Assembly: GCA_004376465.1 (NCBI GenBank)
Contig: SOJU01000062.1
Coordinates: forward strand, 1 to 37,746
DNA length: 37,746 nucleotides
Direction: 5' to 3'
Origin: Anaerolineales bacterium
GTDB lineage: Bacteria; Chloroflexota; Anaerolineae; Anaerolineales; E44-bin32
The position numbers and the translations under genes are program-made. Below are positions 15,458 to 21,551 of this stretch, piece after piece; within the stretch, counting starts at the first letter, position 1, and the number at the start of each line of letters is the position of its first letter. Below the pieces are notes generated by a model. The model was given only the letters and a program-made list of their open reading frames with translations. It had not been told where the DNA came from and searched no databases.

Positions 15458-17077
15458 TCATCCACGCTCTAATTCACTTATAGCAGCAGGAATAAGCTCG
15501 GCCACATCGCCTGCTAACACTCCGGCTGTTGAACCAATCATTCCTGCCGCTATCTCACCTGACCATCCGTGAAGAAAACAGCCTAAAATCGCTGCCTGAT
15601 ATGGCTGTGAGCCTTGTGCAAGCAGAGATGCGATCGCACCCGCCAATACGTCTCCAGTACCCGCACGCGCTAACGCAGGTGTTGCGAAAGGCAGAATCGT
15701 TGCTTGCCCGGTTGGAGAAGCGACGACGGTGAACGCCCCCTTCAACACAACCACATGCCCCCATTGAGCTGCCCACTCTAAGGCAGTTTTTTCTCGTCCC
15801 GCTTGGATCTCTGTTACCGAGATCCCTGTCAAAACCGACATCTCGCCCGGGTGAGGTGTGAGGATCGATTGCCCGGGTAAATGGGCATGCCAGTCCGGAA
15901 TACCTGCGAGCAGTTTCAAACCATCAGCATCGATAACGATAGGAGGCAGCTTCACCATCACATCGTTACCTTCCTGATGAATGAAACCTATTCCTTGTTT
16001 TGCGGTCGCCGAAGGATTTATCAGCCGTTTCATGAAGTCTAGTGTTGGCCGTTCTTGTCCAAAACCAGGACCTAGCAAAAGCGCCTGGCAATGAGGAAGC
16101 TCTTCAAGGATGATATCCGCGGCAGAGCCAGCAATCACTCCAATCTCATGCGGCAGGACGAGCCACGTAGCTTCTGGAATCATTGGAACTAAAAATCCTT
16201 GGATGGGTTCTGGAACAGCCAGCGTTACGAGGCCTGCGCCAGAACGATACGCCCCTAGCGCGGATAAGGATGCAGCGCCGGGGAAATTAACCGATCCAGC
16301 GACGATCATCACTCGTCCAAAGGTGCCTTTGTGAGCGTCCCGCGGCCTATCCGGCAGCCATGTTCGAACATCCTCACGCGTGGCGAAGACAAGATTTATC
16401 GCTGCGATTTCTTTTTGTGCTGGGGGTATCCCAATATCACCTACCAATATTTCGCCAACATACCCTGCTCCCGGGAAACGCAGGAGCCCCGGCTTGGCTG
16501 CAGCGAGCGTGACAGTTAAATCGGCGACGAGGCTCTCGCCTGCAATTTCACCCGTATCACAATCTATGCCCGACGGGCAATCTACCGCAACGACATAAGG
16601 TGCTGAAACATCCTCTTCTAGAACTTTTTTGACGAATGCCAGTATGCTCTTTGAATCACCTTTAATCGGAGGTTTAAATCCGGTCCCGAAAACAGAGTCG
16701 ACGAGTAAATCTGTGGTAGTTATCAAATCTCTAAGCACTTTGTGCCGCGTGTCTTTTTCTGCAGTTGTGACCGGACATCCATGCCGGATAATGCGCTGAA
16801 GGTTCTCGTCCTCGTCAGTTCGATCTCTAGTGAGATAGACCGATACCTCCGCTCCTGCCTCGTGTAAATAATGCCCAACTACGAGCCCATCTCCACCGTT
16901 ATTTCCCGGTCCAACAAGGATCGTCACGCTCCACCTTTCTGCTTCAGGCCAATATTCAAGAATCGCAGTGGCGATCGATTTACCTGCGTTTTCCATCATC
17001 TTGTCGTACGTCAGTCCAGACGCATCAGCCGCTTGCTCAATCGCACGCATCTGTTCAACTGTCACAACTTTCTTCAC
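15458..17077 (-). CDS. nnr: Bifunctional NAD(P)H-hydrate epimerase / ADP-dependent dehydratase
   Basis: NnrE-like N-terminus (MRAIEQAADASG...VGPGNNGGDGLVVGHYL) and NnrD-like C-terminus (ILTPHPGEMSVL, PALARAGTGDVLAG). Confidence 0.94.
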   Translation of the reverse strand: MKKVVTVEQMRAIEQAADASGLTYDKMMENAGKSIATAILEYWPEAERWSVTILVGPGNNGGDGLVVGHYLHEAGAEVSVYLTRDRTDEDENLQRIIRHGCPVTTAEKDTRHKVLRDLITTTDLLVDSVFGTGFKPPIKGDSKSILAFVKKVLEEDVSAPYVVAVDCPSGIDCDTGEIAGESLVADLTVTLAAAKPGLLRFPGAGYVGEILVGDIGIPPAQKEIAAINLVFATREDVRTWLPDRPRDAHKGTFGRVMIVAGSVNFPGAASLSALGAYRSGAGLVTLAVPEPIQGFLVPMIPEATWLVLPHEIGVIAGSAADIILEELPHCQALLLGPGFGQERPTLDFMKRLINPSATAKQGIGFIHQEGNDVMVKLPPIVIDADGLKLLAGIPDWHAHLPGQSILTPHPGEMSVLTGISVTEIQAGREKTALEWAAQWGHVVVLKGAFTVVASPTGQATILPFATPALARAGTGDVLAGAIASLLAQGSQPYQAAILGCFLHGWSGEIAAGMIGSTAGVLAGDVAELIPAAISELERG

Positions 17078-17094
17078 TGGATTATCTCCTTCCT

Positions 17095-18930
17095 CTACTG
17101 CAAGGAAAGTCCTTCGGATAAACTATCCAACCCTAACTCCTGCATCTTCTCCGTCGTCGGCATTCCTATAATTGAATCCCATCCACGTTCCTCGTAGTAA
17201 GCAAGCAACATCCCATCAATAAGAGGGACGTATCCAGCAGCTCCGCCCTCTGCAAGAGGAACTTTAAAGCACTCTGGCAGCGAGTCATCTATTCCAGCAG
17301 GGCTGAGGCGGTGGTTGATCATCCGCTTGAGATTCCAGGATCGCTCACCGAGAAGGAGTAAATCGTTTAAGGTGTATTCATATCCAGTTGCATACTGGAT
17401 CAACTTTCTGGTGTCGCTTGGAGGTAAGTTGGCAAAGATGCACATCACGAGAGCGTTGATGACGGATGTCCAATTCTGATGACGGATGATGTTCTTGACC
17501 TTTTCCGCACCTGCCTGCCGATTGAAGAAGTCTATGCCGATCGCCTCAATCGTCTGCCCGAGCTCGACCAGGTAGTACGGTCCCTGATTATGGCAAGCGC
17601 CTCGAGGAGAGGTGGCATAAACAAGGCCCACCCCTGATGCACCTCGTGGCTCATGATAAGGCACTTCTAGTCCCTTCACTTCCATCGCAGAATTCGGCGA
17701 GTCAAAATTCTCCCCTAGAGCTCTTGCCCCTTTGGCTATGATTTCCCCTAAACCTTCCCGCAGCACCGTTTGGTGAACGAGTTTCTCGACACTAGCGTGA
17801 TCCCCCCACCGGAATTCATCGCCGCTGAAGTCCTTTGAAGTGATTAATCCATCCTCGAATAATTTGAAAACTAGGCCAATTGTGTTTGAGAGCGAGATCG
17901 TATCCATCCCATAGCGATCACAGATCTCCCCCATCCTGGTAATGAACGATAGATCCGTAATCCCGAGATTCGGTCCGAAACCAATTGTCGTCTCATATTC
18001 AGGACCCTTGCGCTCTATGCCGTCCTTCAATTTAACTTTTCTACCGCACGCGATCACACAACCATGACAAGCGCTGATGCCGCTTAATATCGTCTCCGCC
18101 ATCTCTGATCCGGAAACCTTGTCAATGCCATCCAATGAGCCTGATGAAAAATATTTCTTAGGCATTAGCCCAATATAATCGAATAAATCGCTTGAGCTGG
18201 AAGTGCCTAAGTCTCGCATACTCACACTTACGGTATCATCCTTGAGCTCTCTATTTGCTCGAGCCCTTATGGCTGCATATTTACTCGGGTTATCAAGGTG
18301 GATCGAACCTCGACCACGCACGGCGATCGCCTTCAAGTTCTTCGAACCCATGACGGCGCCCAATCCCGTTCGTCCCGCCACTCTTCCATGATCGCAGAGG
18401 ATCAGGGCGAAGGGGATTTGCTGTTCCCCGGCAAGACCAATGCATGCCACCCGAGCTGCTGGCTGACCTAGCTCTTCCTTGATTTTTACCTGCGTTTGGT
18501 ACGTATCTGCCGCTCCCCAGAGATGGGCAGCAGATCGAAGCTCTACCTGGCTGCCCTGGATACATAAGTAAACCGGGGCTGCGGATCGACCGCGAACGAT
18601 CAAGACATCAACCCCTGCTTTACGCAGCTCTGTTCCGAAGAAACCACCAATATTGGATTCGGCCCAGATCCCCGTCGCGGGTGACTTCCCGCAAATTACG
18701 GAGCGTGCCACGGCGGGTCCGCTCGTGCCCGTTAGCGGACCGGTTAGGAAAGCGAGAGGTGCTTCAGGGCTCAGTGGATCGAGGTCTGGGGATAACTCAG
18801 GGTAAAGCAAATACGCGCCCAGACCACTTCCTCCTAGATACTTTTGCATAACATCATTATTGATAATCCCAACAGAATTTGAACCCGTTGAAAGATCAAT
18901 CGTTAAGGTGTGGAATTGGGATTTGCTCAT
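17095..18930 (-). CDS. aor: Aldehyde:ferredoxin oxidoreductase family (tungsten/molybdenum pterin)
   Basis: LTIDLSTG...YLGGSGLGAYLL, AFLTGPLTGT, ESNIGGFFGTELRKAG, CHGCVIAC Fe-S motif, DTISLSNTIG; 611 aa. Confidence 0.93.
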   Translation of the reverse strand: MSKSQFHTLTIDLSTGSNSVGIINNDVMQKYLGGSGLGAYLLYPELSPDLDPLSPEAPLAFLTGPLTGTSGPAVARSVICGKSPATGIWAESNIGGFFGTELRKAGVDVLIVRGRSAAPVYLCIQGSQVELRSAAHLWGAADTYQTQVKIKEELGQPAARVACIGLAGEQQIPFALILCDHGRVAGRTGLGAVMGSKNLKAIAVRGRGSIHLDNPSKYAAIRARANRELKDDTVSVSMRDLGTSSSSDLFDYIGLMPKKYFSSGSLDGIDKVSGSEMAETILSGISACHGCVIACGRKVKLKDGIERKGPEYETTIGFGPNLGITDLSFITRMGEICDRYGMDTISLSNTIGLVFKLFEDGLITSKDFSGDEFRWGDHASVEKLVHQTVLREGLGEIIAKGARALGENFDSPNSAMEVKGLEVPYHEPRGASGVGLVYATSPRGACHNQGPYYLVELGQTIEAIGIDFFNRQAGAEKVKNIIRHQNWTSVINALVMCIFANLPPSDTRKLIQYATGYEYTLNDLLLLGERSWNLKRMINHRLSPAGIDDSLPECFKVPLAEGGAAGYVPLIDGMLLAYYEERGWDSIIGMPTTEKMQELGLDSLSEGLSLQ

Positions 18931-19020
18931 TGTCTCAGTATGTTATGGATCTGTCGTTGACGAAATCGAGTGTCCATTAAGCTGTACTCCATTCTCGCCG
19001 CTTCACGTCTTCCAGATGAC

Positions 19021-20646
19021 CTAATTCTTAGCAGGAATCCCGCTCATCGCGTACTCTGCCATCGCAGTTATCGTCAAGGTGGGGTTAAGCCCAGGGTTAG
19101 CCTGGATGATTGACCCATCGACGATATACAAGCCAGGGTAGTTAAACACCTCAAGCTCTTTATTGACCACGCCTTCTGCATCATTACTCCCCATCAGACA
19201 CCCCCCAAGAATATGTGCGGTCATCGATGCGTTCAGCGCGCCTTCTACAATATTCCCCATTGGCAGACCATCAATCTCCGCAGCCATCGCACGGACTACC
19301 TGATGCCCTATGGGTATTTCCGCGGGTACCTGCTTCTCTTTCCCGCGGTCTGATGTTAACCCTAAGCGGAATAGAGTCAGTAGACTGCGGCCCAACTTCA
19401 CCCGCATGAGGTTATCCTCGGTTTGCATCAGGAGGATCAAAAAGGTGCGCCGACCCCAGGCAGGGTCGAACTTCGATTTAATAAACGACCAGGGATTGCG
19501 GAGAATGGCAAGCAAGAGCAGCCATAACCGGTAAGCTACGCCAGCTTCCCCGGCCTCGATCATTGGCGCAACTAAAAGGCGACTCAAGAAGGACGAGCCT
19601 TCTGGAAATCGAAAAGGCTCGATATGGGTGACGTCATCGGCATGGAAAACTGTGTTAATCGCAATCCCTTCCGTATGGTTGCTGGCTGGGTCCAGATCGG
19701 TAACACCCAGAAGCGCTTCGGAGTTGGTCCGCACATTTTCTCCGAGTCTCACGGACAACTCGGGGAGCGTGCGAGATACGTCCCTGCATTGCAGGAGCAG
19801 GTTCAATGTGCCGATCACACCCGCGGCGACGATCACGTTTCTGGCATAGATTTCACCACTTACAGACCTATATACACTTTTAGGATTTTTATATCGAAGG
19901 CGATACCGGGCGCCATCTCCGACACCATCTTTCGCCTTACTTATCTCAGTGACCTGGGCCTCAGGTCGGATCTCAACTCCAAGTTTTTCTGCGAAATACA
20001 GATAGTTCTTCGGCAAAGTGTTTTTTGCGTTTTCTCTACACCCGATCATACAGCCGCCACAAAAAGTGCATCCTGACCGCAGAGGGCCCTGGCCATTAAA
20101 GAAGGGATCGTCAACCTCGATTCCCTGCGTACCAAAATAAACCCCGACGGGAAGGTTTTTGAATGTACTCCCCCTGCCCATTTTCTCTGATACCGATCTC
20201 ATGATCTTGTCGGCTTCAGTAATGCTGGGGCTGATGCTGCGCCCTAGCATTCGCTTTGCTGTATCGAAATGAGGGGCGAGGACAGATTTCCATTCATTTA
20301 GCCCAGCCCAATTACCTACCTCATACATTTTATCGTCCGGGTCAACGAGCACATTCGCATATCCCAGGCTTCCACCCCCCACCCCGCTCCAGCTGAATGC
20401 CATCACATCTCGCAAAAGCGTTAATTCCCAGAAGCCGAAAAAACGAAGTGCGGGCATCCAAAGAAATTTCCACAACAGCCAATTGTTCTTCGGGAAATCC
20501 TCATCCTCGTACCGTAAGCCGCGCTCAAGTACAAGGACCCGATATCCCTTTTCAGCCAAGCGCATCGCCGAAACACTCCCGCCAAAACCCGAGCCGATAA
20601 TAACAAAATCGTAGATCTGTTTGGATGATTGAAGTTCTGATGTCAT
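19021..20646 (-). CDS. GMC-family (cholesterol-oxidase-like) FAD oxidoreductase with CxxCxxCxxxC motif
   Basis: FVIIGSGFGGSVSAMRLAEKGYRVLVLERG FAD site, CTFCGGCMIGCRENAKNT, C-terminal LYIVDGSIIQANPGLNPTLTITAMAEYA. Confidence 0.88.
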   Translation of the reverse strand: MTSELQSSKQIYDFVIIGSGFGGSVSAMRLAEKGYRVLVLERGLRYEDEDFPKNNWLLWKFLWMPALRFFGFWELTLLRDVMAFSWSGVGGGSLGYANVLVDPDDKMYEVGNWAGLNEWKSVLAPHFDTAKRMLGRSISPSITEADKIMRSVSEKMGRGSTFKNLPVGVYFGTQGIEVDDPFFNGQGPLRSGCTFCGGCMIGCRENAKNTLPKNYLYFAEKLGVEIRPEAQVTEISKAKDGVGDGARYRLRYKNPKSVYRSVSGEIYARNVIVAAGVIGTLNLLLQCRDVSRTLPELSVRLGENVRTNSEALLGVTDLDPASNHTEGIAINTVFHADDVTHIEPFRFPEGSSFLSRLLVAPMIEAGEAGVAYRLWLLLLAILRNPWSFIKSKFDPAWGRRTFLILLMQTEDNLMRVKLGRSLLTLFRLGLTSDRGKEKQVPAEIPIGHQVVRAMAAEIDGLPMGNIVEGALNASMTAHILGGCLMGSNDAEGVVNKELEVFNYPGLYIVDGSIIQANPGLNPTLTITAMAEYAMSGIPAKN

Positions 20647-20725
20647 GAATTGCCCTATTTTCTTTAAATATATAATCGTGGAGATGCCGCACTTTACTCG
20701 TGATACCTAAGCTAAGATTTCGCGC

Positions 20726-20998
20726 CTAATCTAACCATAACGTATCGAAGAGGATTATTACGCTCGAATATTCAACGGGTGCCTGCTCTTGCATGTCCGG
20801 TGGCAAACACTTTACGATTGATTCCATGTTTTCCGCTTTCCACTGGCAATACAATTTCCCCTCGGCTGGATCAAAGAAAGAATGAACCCACTCAACATCT
20901 CCGTGGGCTTTCTTTCTAATTTCGCGCCACTGTTCGATCCAATCATCCTGTGATTCCGGATACATTTGAATTTTATGTACTAGAAGGTAATGGGGCAT
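20726..20998 (-). CDS. Small DUF4242-like protein
   Basis: 90 aa MPHYLLVHKI...VEWVHSFFDPAEGKLYCQWKAENMESI; family call from motif style only. Confidence 0.55.
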   Translation of the reverse strand: MPHYLLVHKIQMYPESQDDWIEQWREIRKKAHGDVEWVHSFFDPAEGKLYCQWKAENMESIVKCLPPDMQEQAPVEYSSVIILFDTLWLD

Positions 20999-21036
20999 GA
21001 TTCGACCTCCAGGTCATGGGCATGATTCTTTATGGC

Positions 21037-21456
21037 TTATTCCTTTATCGGAACCTTTTGACAGCAGCGCACAAAATCTAACACTGTAGGCACATTGCGA
21101 AGCATGTACCCCATATTCCCCTGAACACGCAGACGGCGAGTCATCATCGCTTGAATCGGATCCAGTTGACCGGTGAATAATTTCTGGATGTGGTCTATGC
21201 GCGCCCGGAGTGTAAATGCTGCATCCGGTAATTCTTCTTTCTCAAGATCGATGAACCGGGCGCTGCGACATTTCCCATGCCACAAATCGAGATACACAGC
21301 TACAGGAAGATCTTGGCGCTCACTCCCGTCGTCAGGTTCAATCACTACCGTCATATCCCCTTCCCAGTTCTCCGCCACCTCAGCATAACGCTCATCAGAA
21401 TTGAGAACCTCGACTAGAACCTGCAGCCATTCATCGCTTGGAAATGGATAAGCCAT
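21037..21456 (-). CDS. SCP2 sterol-carrier-like protein
   Basis: 139 aa; LDPIQAMMTRRLRVQGNMGYMLRNVPTVLDFVRCC is SCP2-like; GGAGG upstream of ATG. Confidence 0.78.
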   Translation of the reverse strand: MAYPFPSDEWLQVLVEVLNSDERYAEVAENWEGDMTVVIEPDDGSERQDLPVAVYLDLWHGKCRSARFIDLEKEELPDAAFTLRARIDHIQKLFTGQLDPIQAMMTRRLRVQGNMGYMLRNVPTVLDFVRCCQKVPIKE

Positions 21457-21482: not shown

Positions 21483-21551
21483 ATTATGGGTCATAAGATG
21501 CGTACCTGTCAACGTTTTGCGTTGACAGGCCGCTCCATGCTCGGTTACACT
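21483..21551. promoter_or_regulatory. Divergent promoter pair with palindrome spanning both -35 boxes
   Basis: CCTGTCAACG-TTTTG-CGTTGACAGG (21505-21529). Plus: TTGACA 21522-21527, 18 bp, TACACT 21546-21551. Minus: TTGACA 21512-21507, 18 bp, CATAAT 21488-21483. Confidence 0.75.

Follow-up and report, generated by a model that had tools for sequence, protein, structure and literature searches.

A conserved SCP2, alcohol dehydrogenase and AOR gene cassette of Anaerolineae with a likely role in lipid-alcohol oxidation

Introduction

The oxidation of an alcohol to the corresponding acid by an alcohol dehydrogenase (ADH) acting together with a tungsten-dependent aldehyde:ferredoxin oxidoreductase (AOR) is reported for Thermoanaerobacter, where AOR is found with ADHs (PMC10816221), and for Aromatoleum, where AOR and a benzyl alcohol dehydrogenase form a couple (PMC6365974, PMC11231019). 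In the current work a gene cassette is analyzed that is located on the 37,746-nucleotide contig SOJU01000062.1 (assembly GCA_004376465.1; this entire stretch is referred to below as the window) of an Anaerolineales metagenome-assembled genome (MAG) of 2.9 Mb and 81% completeness, and that encodes, in this order, an SCP2-like carrier, an SCO4226-like small protein, a GMC oxidoreductase and an AOR. The cassette resembles the Thermoanaerobacter and Aromatoleum couples in that an ADH and a tungsten AOR would link alcohol, aldehyde and acid, and it differs from them in that they reportedly employ non-GMC dehydrogenases and act on small or aromatic substrates. A literature search, with most subscription journals outside its coverage, retrieved no description of an AOR with an SCP2 protein or of this gene set, and we know of no SCP2 carrier reported with the Thermoanaerobacter or Aromatoleum couples. 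While oxidation by ADH and AOR is thus already known, the distinguishing features of the present system are a dedicated SCP2 subfamily and an ADH slot that is filled by unrelated enzymes.

In our view the cassette probably encodes a module for the oxidation of lipid alcohols, in which SCP2 would serve as carrier, GMC would convert the alcohol into the aldehyde and AOR the aldehyde into the acid, the latter being destined for acyl-CoA formation and beta-oxidation. Anaerolineae are abundant and poorly cultured bacteria of sediments and bioreactors, and a widespread set of SCP2, ADH and AOR represents a concrete pathway that could allow them to break down lipid alcohols while generating reduced ferredoxin.

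Conservation and absence of the cassette as a block

A survey of 249 genomes drawn from the class, in which AOR-bearing genomes other than the source genome were counted, yielded an AOR of the cassette type in 75 genomes, 69 of which also encode the same SCP2 subfamily. The SCP2 gene is positioned at most 6 kb upstream of the AOR gene, on the same strand, in 49 of the 75 genomes, as compared to an estimated 1% or so expected for a random gene, and the arrangement is therefore not due to chance. SCP2 and AOR are the core of the cassette across Anaerolineae; in lineage f11, and at the majority of the named Anaerolineales loci, the two genes are directly adjacent. A genome that possesses the GMC cassette (G011) also carries an additional SCP2-AOR pair without GMC (L201).

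Within the family to which the window belongs (f1), the GMC gene is present in 17 of 27 genomes, and the matching AOR is found in 16 of these 17, a co-occurrence above chance (Fisher p ~2e-4, with kinship among the genomes being ignored). The flanking genes topA, greA, dGTPase, Nnr, mnmA and eno are likewise syntenic in this family, and conservation alone is for that reason weak evidence here. In four genomes (G008, G014, G015 and G019, loci L198, L206, L196 and L199, respectively), the entire block from SCP2 to AOR is absent, with dGTPase and Nnr being separated by approximately 90-300 bp. Because the block is missing as a whole, leaving dGTPase and Nnr abutting, the four genes were gained or lost as one piece that excludes Nnr. 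SCP2, the SCO4226-like protein, GMC and AOR thus constitute a genuine four-gene module. The first-pass annotation of this DNA had counted Nnr among the members of the pathway; this assignment was abandoned, as Nnr is part of the local housekeeping synteny and stays behind in genomes that lack the cassette.

Replacement of the alcohol dehydrogenase at a fixed position

Outside the directly adjacent loci, a gap of the size of one gene separates SCP2 and AOR. Inspection of 20 such gapped cassettes revealed an iron ADH (Fe-ADH), identified by Pfam PF00465/PF25137 and NCBIfam profiles, in 18 cases, a GMC enzyme in one case and neither of the two in the remaining case. The order SCP2-FeADH-AOR is shared by 17 family codes within the class and by f100 and f107 beyond it. 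GMC and Fe-ADH possess unrelated folds, and the cassette is a naturally occurring example of an exchange between a flavoenzyme of the GMC family and an iron ADH at one pathway position. As Fe-ADH replaces GMC in this slot, the middle gene would have a single function, being alcohol oxidation, in the pathway of AOR; we regard this replacement by a non-homologous ADH as the strongest evidence for such a shared role, and the repeated swap to an unrelated alcohol-oxidizing enzyme indicates that the cassette genes work together.

Two changes of the GMC label have to be assumed on the AOR tree, both of which are forced by strongly supported branches, the first being the entry in the window's family and the other that in genome G213, which is placed within family f53 among sister genomes carrying Fe-ADH. 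By this tree, GMC entered the slot at least twice. When all cassette GMCs were treated as one clade, the approximately unbiased (AU) test did not reject this topology (p 0.17), so that the GMC tree alone is no proof of two recruitments, these being supported by the AOR tree. The GMC of G213 is closest (69%) to the GMC of L047, which is located outside any cassette. In G021, a genome of the same genus as the GMC-bearing G011, one contig breaks off within an Fe-ADH gene that comes after dGTPase-SCP2, another contig carries the remainder of an Fe-ADH gene and then AOR, and this AOR groups with an AOR of the Fe-ADH type. A whole Fe-ADH-type cassette thus seems to occupy the window's own site in G021, the joining of the two contigs being our reconstruction.

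The first-pass annotation had proposed a logic of carrier, alcohol oxidation and aldehyde oxidation, and had stated that a lack of conserved co-occurrence in relatives would refute it. This logic is well supported and withstood that check: SCP2, ADH and AOR are co-conserved across many families and absent together, and the ADH is exchanged for a non-homologous one.

At a number of loci (L099-L103 of f25, L133, L135, L140 and L191), AOR is followed by a short-chain dehydrogenase/reductase matching HpnA / 3-beta-HSD profiles, which may represent a further alcohol-oxidizing partner. In f25, an SCP2-FeADH pair and AOR are found at two separate loci.

Probable substrate class and proposed pathway

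Oxidation of a sterol 3-hydroxyl group, i.e. of a secondary alcohol, generates a ketone, which is a dead end for AOR. Given that AOR cannot use a ketone, only a primary alcohol would suit a coupled pathway. The substrates of Fe-ADHs are small or aliphatic alcohols, and these enzymes are not steroid enzymes. In a survey of the cassette neighbours most clusters proved to be reading frames antisense to cassette genes. Acyl-CoA ligase genes occur in cassettes L263 (long-chain-fatty-acid ligase family) and L270; patatin-like lipase genes are located near SCP2 at L207, L215, L218, L219 and L220. Next to GMC homologues that are not part of a cassette, L050 and L052 carry thiolase and 3-hydroxyacyl-CoA dehydrogenase genes, and acyl-CoA dehydrogenases are present in the source genome. 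A partial parallel is offered by a cluster on Haloferax mediterranei pHM100 (L192), in which a distant SCP2 relative is situated between a zinc ADH (Zn-ADH) and a long-chain acyl-CoA ligase, near an aldehyde dehydrogenase, an acyl-CoA dehydrogenase and an alkyl sulfatase; here Zn-ADH and an NAD(P)-type aldehyde dehydrogenase take the place of GMC or Fe-ADH and AOR, while the SCP2 relative is merely 28% identical and lacks the WHGxCR motif. The need for a primary alcohol, the Fe-ADHs, the lipase and ligase neighbours, the Haloferax cluster and the thiolase-side GMCs jointly suggest that the substrates are most likely primary alcohols, either long-chain or isoprenoid, that end up as acyl-CoA.

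According to the proposed pathway, SCP2 would bind a hydrophobic primary alcohol (a long-chain fatty or isoprenoid, lipid-derived alcohol) and/or the resulting aldehyde. The GMC flavoenzyme would oxidize the alcohol to the aldehyde, with FAD and a 3Fe-4S cluster at the surface probably relaying the electrons to an acceptor, after which the tungsten AOR would convert the aldehyde to the carboxylic acid with concomitant reduction of ferredoxin. The acid would then be activated to acyl-CoA and subjected to beta-oxidation. The SCO4226-like protein would be an accessory to this scheme and Nnr a syntenic neighbour. The catalytic motifs of both GMC and AOR are intact, in line with such a pathway.

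Several observations weigh against this reading. In most named Anaerolineales loci SCP2-AOR occurs without an adjacent ADH, from which it follows that a gene for the ADH step is not a constant feature of the locus, and for 19 of the 81 SCP2 genes at named loci there is no AOR in the vicinity, with the neighbours of four such genes (L128, L149, L160 and L177) being unrelated genes. Foldseek and NCBIfam both rank cholesterol oxidases as nearest to GMC. Furthermore, MoaA, required for cofactor synthesis, was not found in the incomplete source MAG, and was detected in only five of ten cassette-bearing relatives.

The frequent occurrence of the conserved SCP2-AOR core without an adjacent ADH would also suit a detoxification role, in which SCP2 sequesters toxic lipid-derived aldehydes arising, for example, from plasmalogen or lipid-peroxide breakdown, AOR oxidizes these and ADH handles no more than the matching alcohol, and in which the patatin lipase could free ether-lipid products. 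Retention or re-acquisition of ADH in many families and the acyl-CoA ligases beside some cassettes nevertheless fit carbon-source use, and detoxification is accordingly judged unlikely. Greater doubt attaches to a reductive direction, in which AOR would reduce fatty acids with ferredoxin and the dehydrogenase would turn the aldehyde into a lipid alcohol, to be used for waxes, ether lipids or fermentation products: Fe-ADHs are reversible, but a flavin enzyme of the GMC family, which can fill this slot too, should operate in the oxidative direction only, and the neighbouring lipase and acyl-CoA ligase fit breakdown. Although AOR together with ADH can operate in the alcohol-forming direction, as reported for Thermoanaerobacter and Clostridium (PMC10816221, PMC12727526), we consider this direction improbable for the cassette.

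Oxidation of sterols or hopanoids by a cholesterol-oxidase-like GMC, with SCP2 as sterol carrier, is marginally less probable still. GMC is matched along its entire length by the NCBIfam ChoxAB profile NF058674 (512 bits), in structure it comes closest to cholesterol oxidases, and SCP2 folds are able to bind sterols; yet the score is below the curated cut-off of this profile (850), the ketone formed by 3-hydroxyl oxidation would be useless to AOR, the same slot is filled by Fe-ADH, and no squalene-hopene cyclase was found in the source MAG at its 81% completeness. The steroid substrate suggested by the first-pass annotation is disfavoured on the same grounds and was dropped. Least probable of all, and in our estimation very improbable, is plain synteny of functionally unlinked genes. 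It would account for Nnr and for the flanking genes that are equally syntenic in the window's family, but not for the absence of four genes as a block from otherwise intact surroundings, for SCP2-ADH-AOR in many families with other surroundings, or for the refilling of the slot by a non-homologous ADH.

The SCP2 subfamily

The SCP2-like carrier (139 amino acids, positions 21037..21456, minus strand) was recognized by Pfam SCP2 (1.4e-12), and its predicted model is confident (pLDDT 92), with Thermus SCP2 2cx7 as best structural match (Foldseek 8.6e-13). It belongs to a distinct subfamily that is characterized by the motifs WEGD and LWHGxCR, the latter corresponding to residues L58-R64 (21265..21285, minus strand), whose columns are invariant in 20 homologues. 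The W-H-G-x-C-R turn, which is invariant in the subfamily, is unusual and is absent from the haloarchaeal relatives. All of the best 80 of 433 genome matches belong to Chloroflexota; outside this phylum, where only plasmids were searched, distant haloarchaeal relatives were obtained and none closer. The structurally solved TT1886 of Thermus thermophilus (1wfr, 2cx7) is of the same subfamily, sharing the WEG and LDLWHGxCR motifs, and the module suggests a role for this SCP2 subfamily, to which no function had been assigned.

More tentatively, the LWHGxCR-type SCP2 could be an obligate shuttle that carries the reactive lipid aldehyde from the interchangeable ADH to the tungsten AOR, perhaps held on the invariant Cys63. 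If true, this would represent a new carrier-based channelling module of Chloroflexota, coupling lipid-alcohol oxidation to low-potential ferredoxin.

The GMC enzyme

The alcohol-oxidizing slot of the cassette is occupied in the window by a cholesterol-oxidase-like GMC oxidoreductase of 541 amino acids (19021..20646, minus strand), assigned on the basis of profiles, structure and motifs. GMC_oxred_C is matched at 1e-14, GMC_oxred_N remains under its cut-off (20.6 versus 23 bits), and Rossmann-type FAD profiles match residues 12-43. The presumed catalytic pair His478 and Asn521 is invariant in 23 GMC sequences. With cholesterol oxidases (Brevibacterium 1coy, Streptomyces 1b4v) the enzyme shares the GMC fold and the His/Asn pair, in addition to these being its top profile and structure matches, whereas it differs from them by an identity of just about 20% (structural alignment), by a four-cysteine motif, by its AOR partner and by being replaceable by Fe-ADH.

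This motif, C193-C196-C199-C203 (20038..20070, minus strand), is invariant across the 23 GMC homologues and represents a candidate 3Fe-4S site. The 3Fe-4S ligands of the Burkholderia cepacia glucose dehydrogenase (BcGDH) are Cys212, Cys218 and Cys222 (PMC6719666), and their x5, x3 spacing is equal to that of C193, C199 and C203, the comparison being one of spacing only. These three cysteines are retained in the G213 GMC, in which C196 is replaced by Val (L282). GMC probably holds a 3Fe-4S cluster. The AlphaFold model has a pLDDT of 84.9, falling to ~58-75 around the cysteine motif, and its next-best structural matches are the 3Fe-4S enzymes 6a2u (B. cepacia glucose dehydrogenase) and 7w2j (fructose dehydrogenase). 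Such dehydrogenases possess a gamma (hitchhiker) or multihaem subunit, for which no gene is present among the cassette genes, and the surroundings of the cassette GMC, unlike those of the sugar dehydrogenases, offer no sugar context.

AOR and accessory genes

The AOR gene (611 amino acids, 17095..18930, minus strand) is covered end to end by AFOR_N (1.6e-71) and AFOR_C (1.3e-107), and residues 9-601 of its product align with Pyrococcus AOR 1aor. Residues C288, C291, C295, C497, E313 and H447 are invariant, and are presumably the 4Fe-4S cysteines and the active-site Glu and His as judged from the Pyrococcus enzyme. By these profiles and motifs the protein is predicted to be a tungsten aldehyde:ferredoxin oxidoreductase. 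The source genome harbours two additional AOR genes that are more distant (L060:6725-8899 and L061:2-1348), the first of which is situated ~2.5 kb from a thiolase-like gene. In one Fe-ADH cassette the AOR gene is flanked by a MaoC-domain gene and by a gene for a flavodoxin and 4Fe-4S protein (L110:7132-7959), the latter product being a possible electron acceptor of AOR.

The SCO4226-like protein (90 amino acids, 20726..20998, minus strand) matches PF14026, which we take to be the former DUF4242, at 6.5e-8 (33.1 bits against a cut-off of 28.5). Its gene is an optional accessory, which cassettes of the GMC type and of the Fe-ADH type possess in some cases and lack in others. In SCO4226 itself the Ni-1 ligands are Asp43, Ser46 and His76 (PMC4186839).

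ADH-less SCP2-AOR loci of the f11 type (L092-L098 and many named Anaerolineales loci) often have an ABC transporter divergently upstream; it was considered as a tungstate importer and rejected, as its profiles are those of polar amino-acid transporters.

Gene order and signals in the window

Five consecutive minus-strand genes had been described in the first-pass annotation as SCP2, DUF4242-like, GMC, AOR and Nnr; all open reading frames were confirmed in this order, with intergenic gaps of 38, 79, 90 and 17 bp, and their identities are backed by Pfam profiles. A consensus-match scan detected no terminator-like site in any of the four gaps. A sigma-70-like promoter candidate, TTGACA-18-CATAAT (21483..21512, minus strand), is located 26 bp 5' of the SCP2 start and agrees with the consensus, the sole basis of its assignment, at 11 of 12 positions. 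Nnr, a predicted bifunctional NAD(P)HX epimerase/dehydratase outside the module (15458..17077, minus strand; Pfam YjeF_N and Carb_kinase), follows AOR. In a second arrangement of the Nnr-SCP2 neighbourhood (L208:5919-8129), Nnr directly precedes SCP2, with no AOR nearby.

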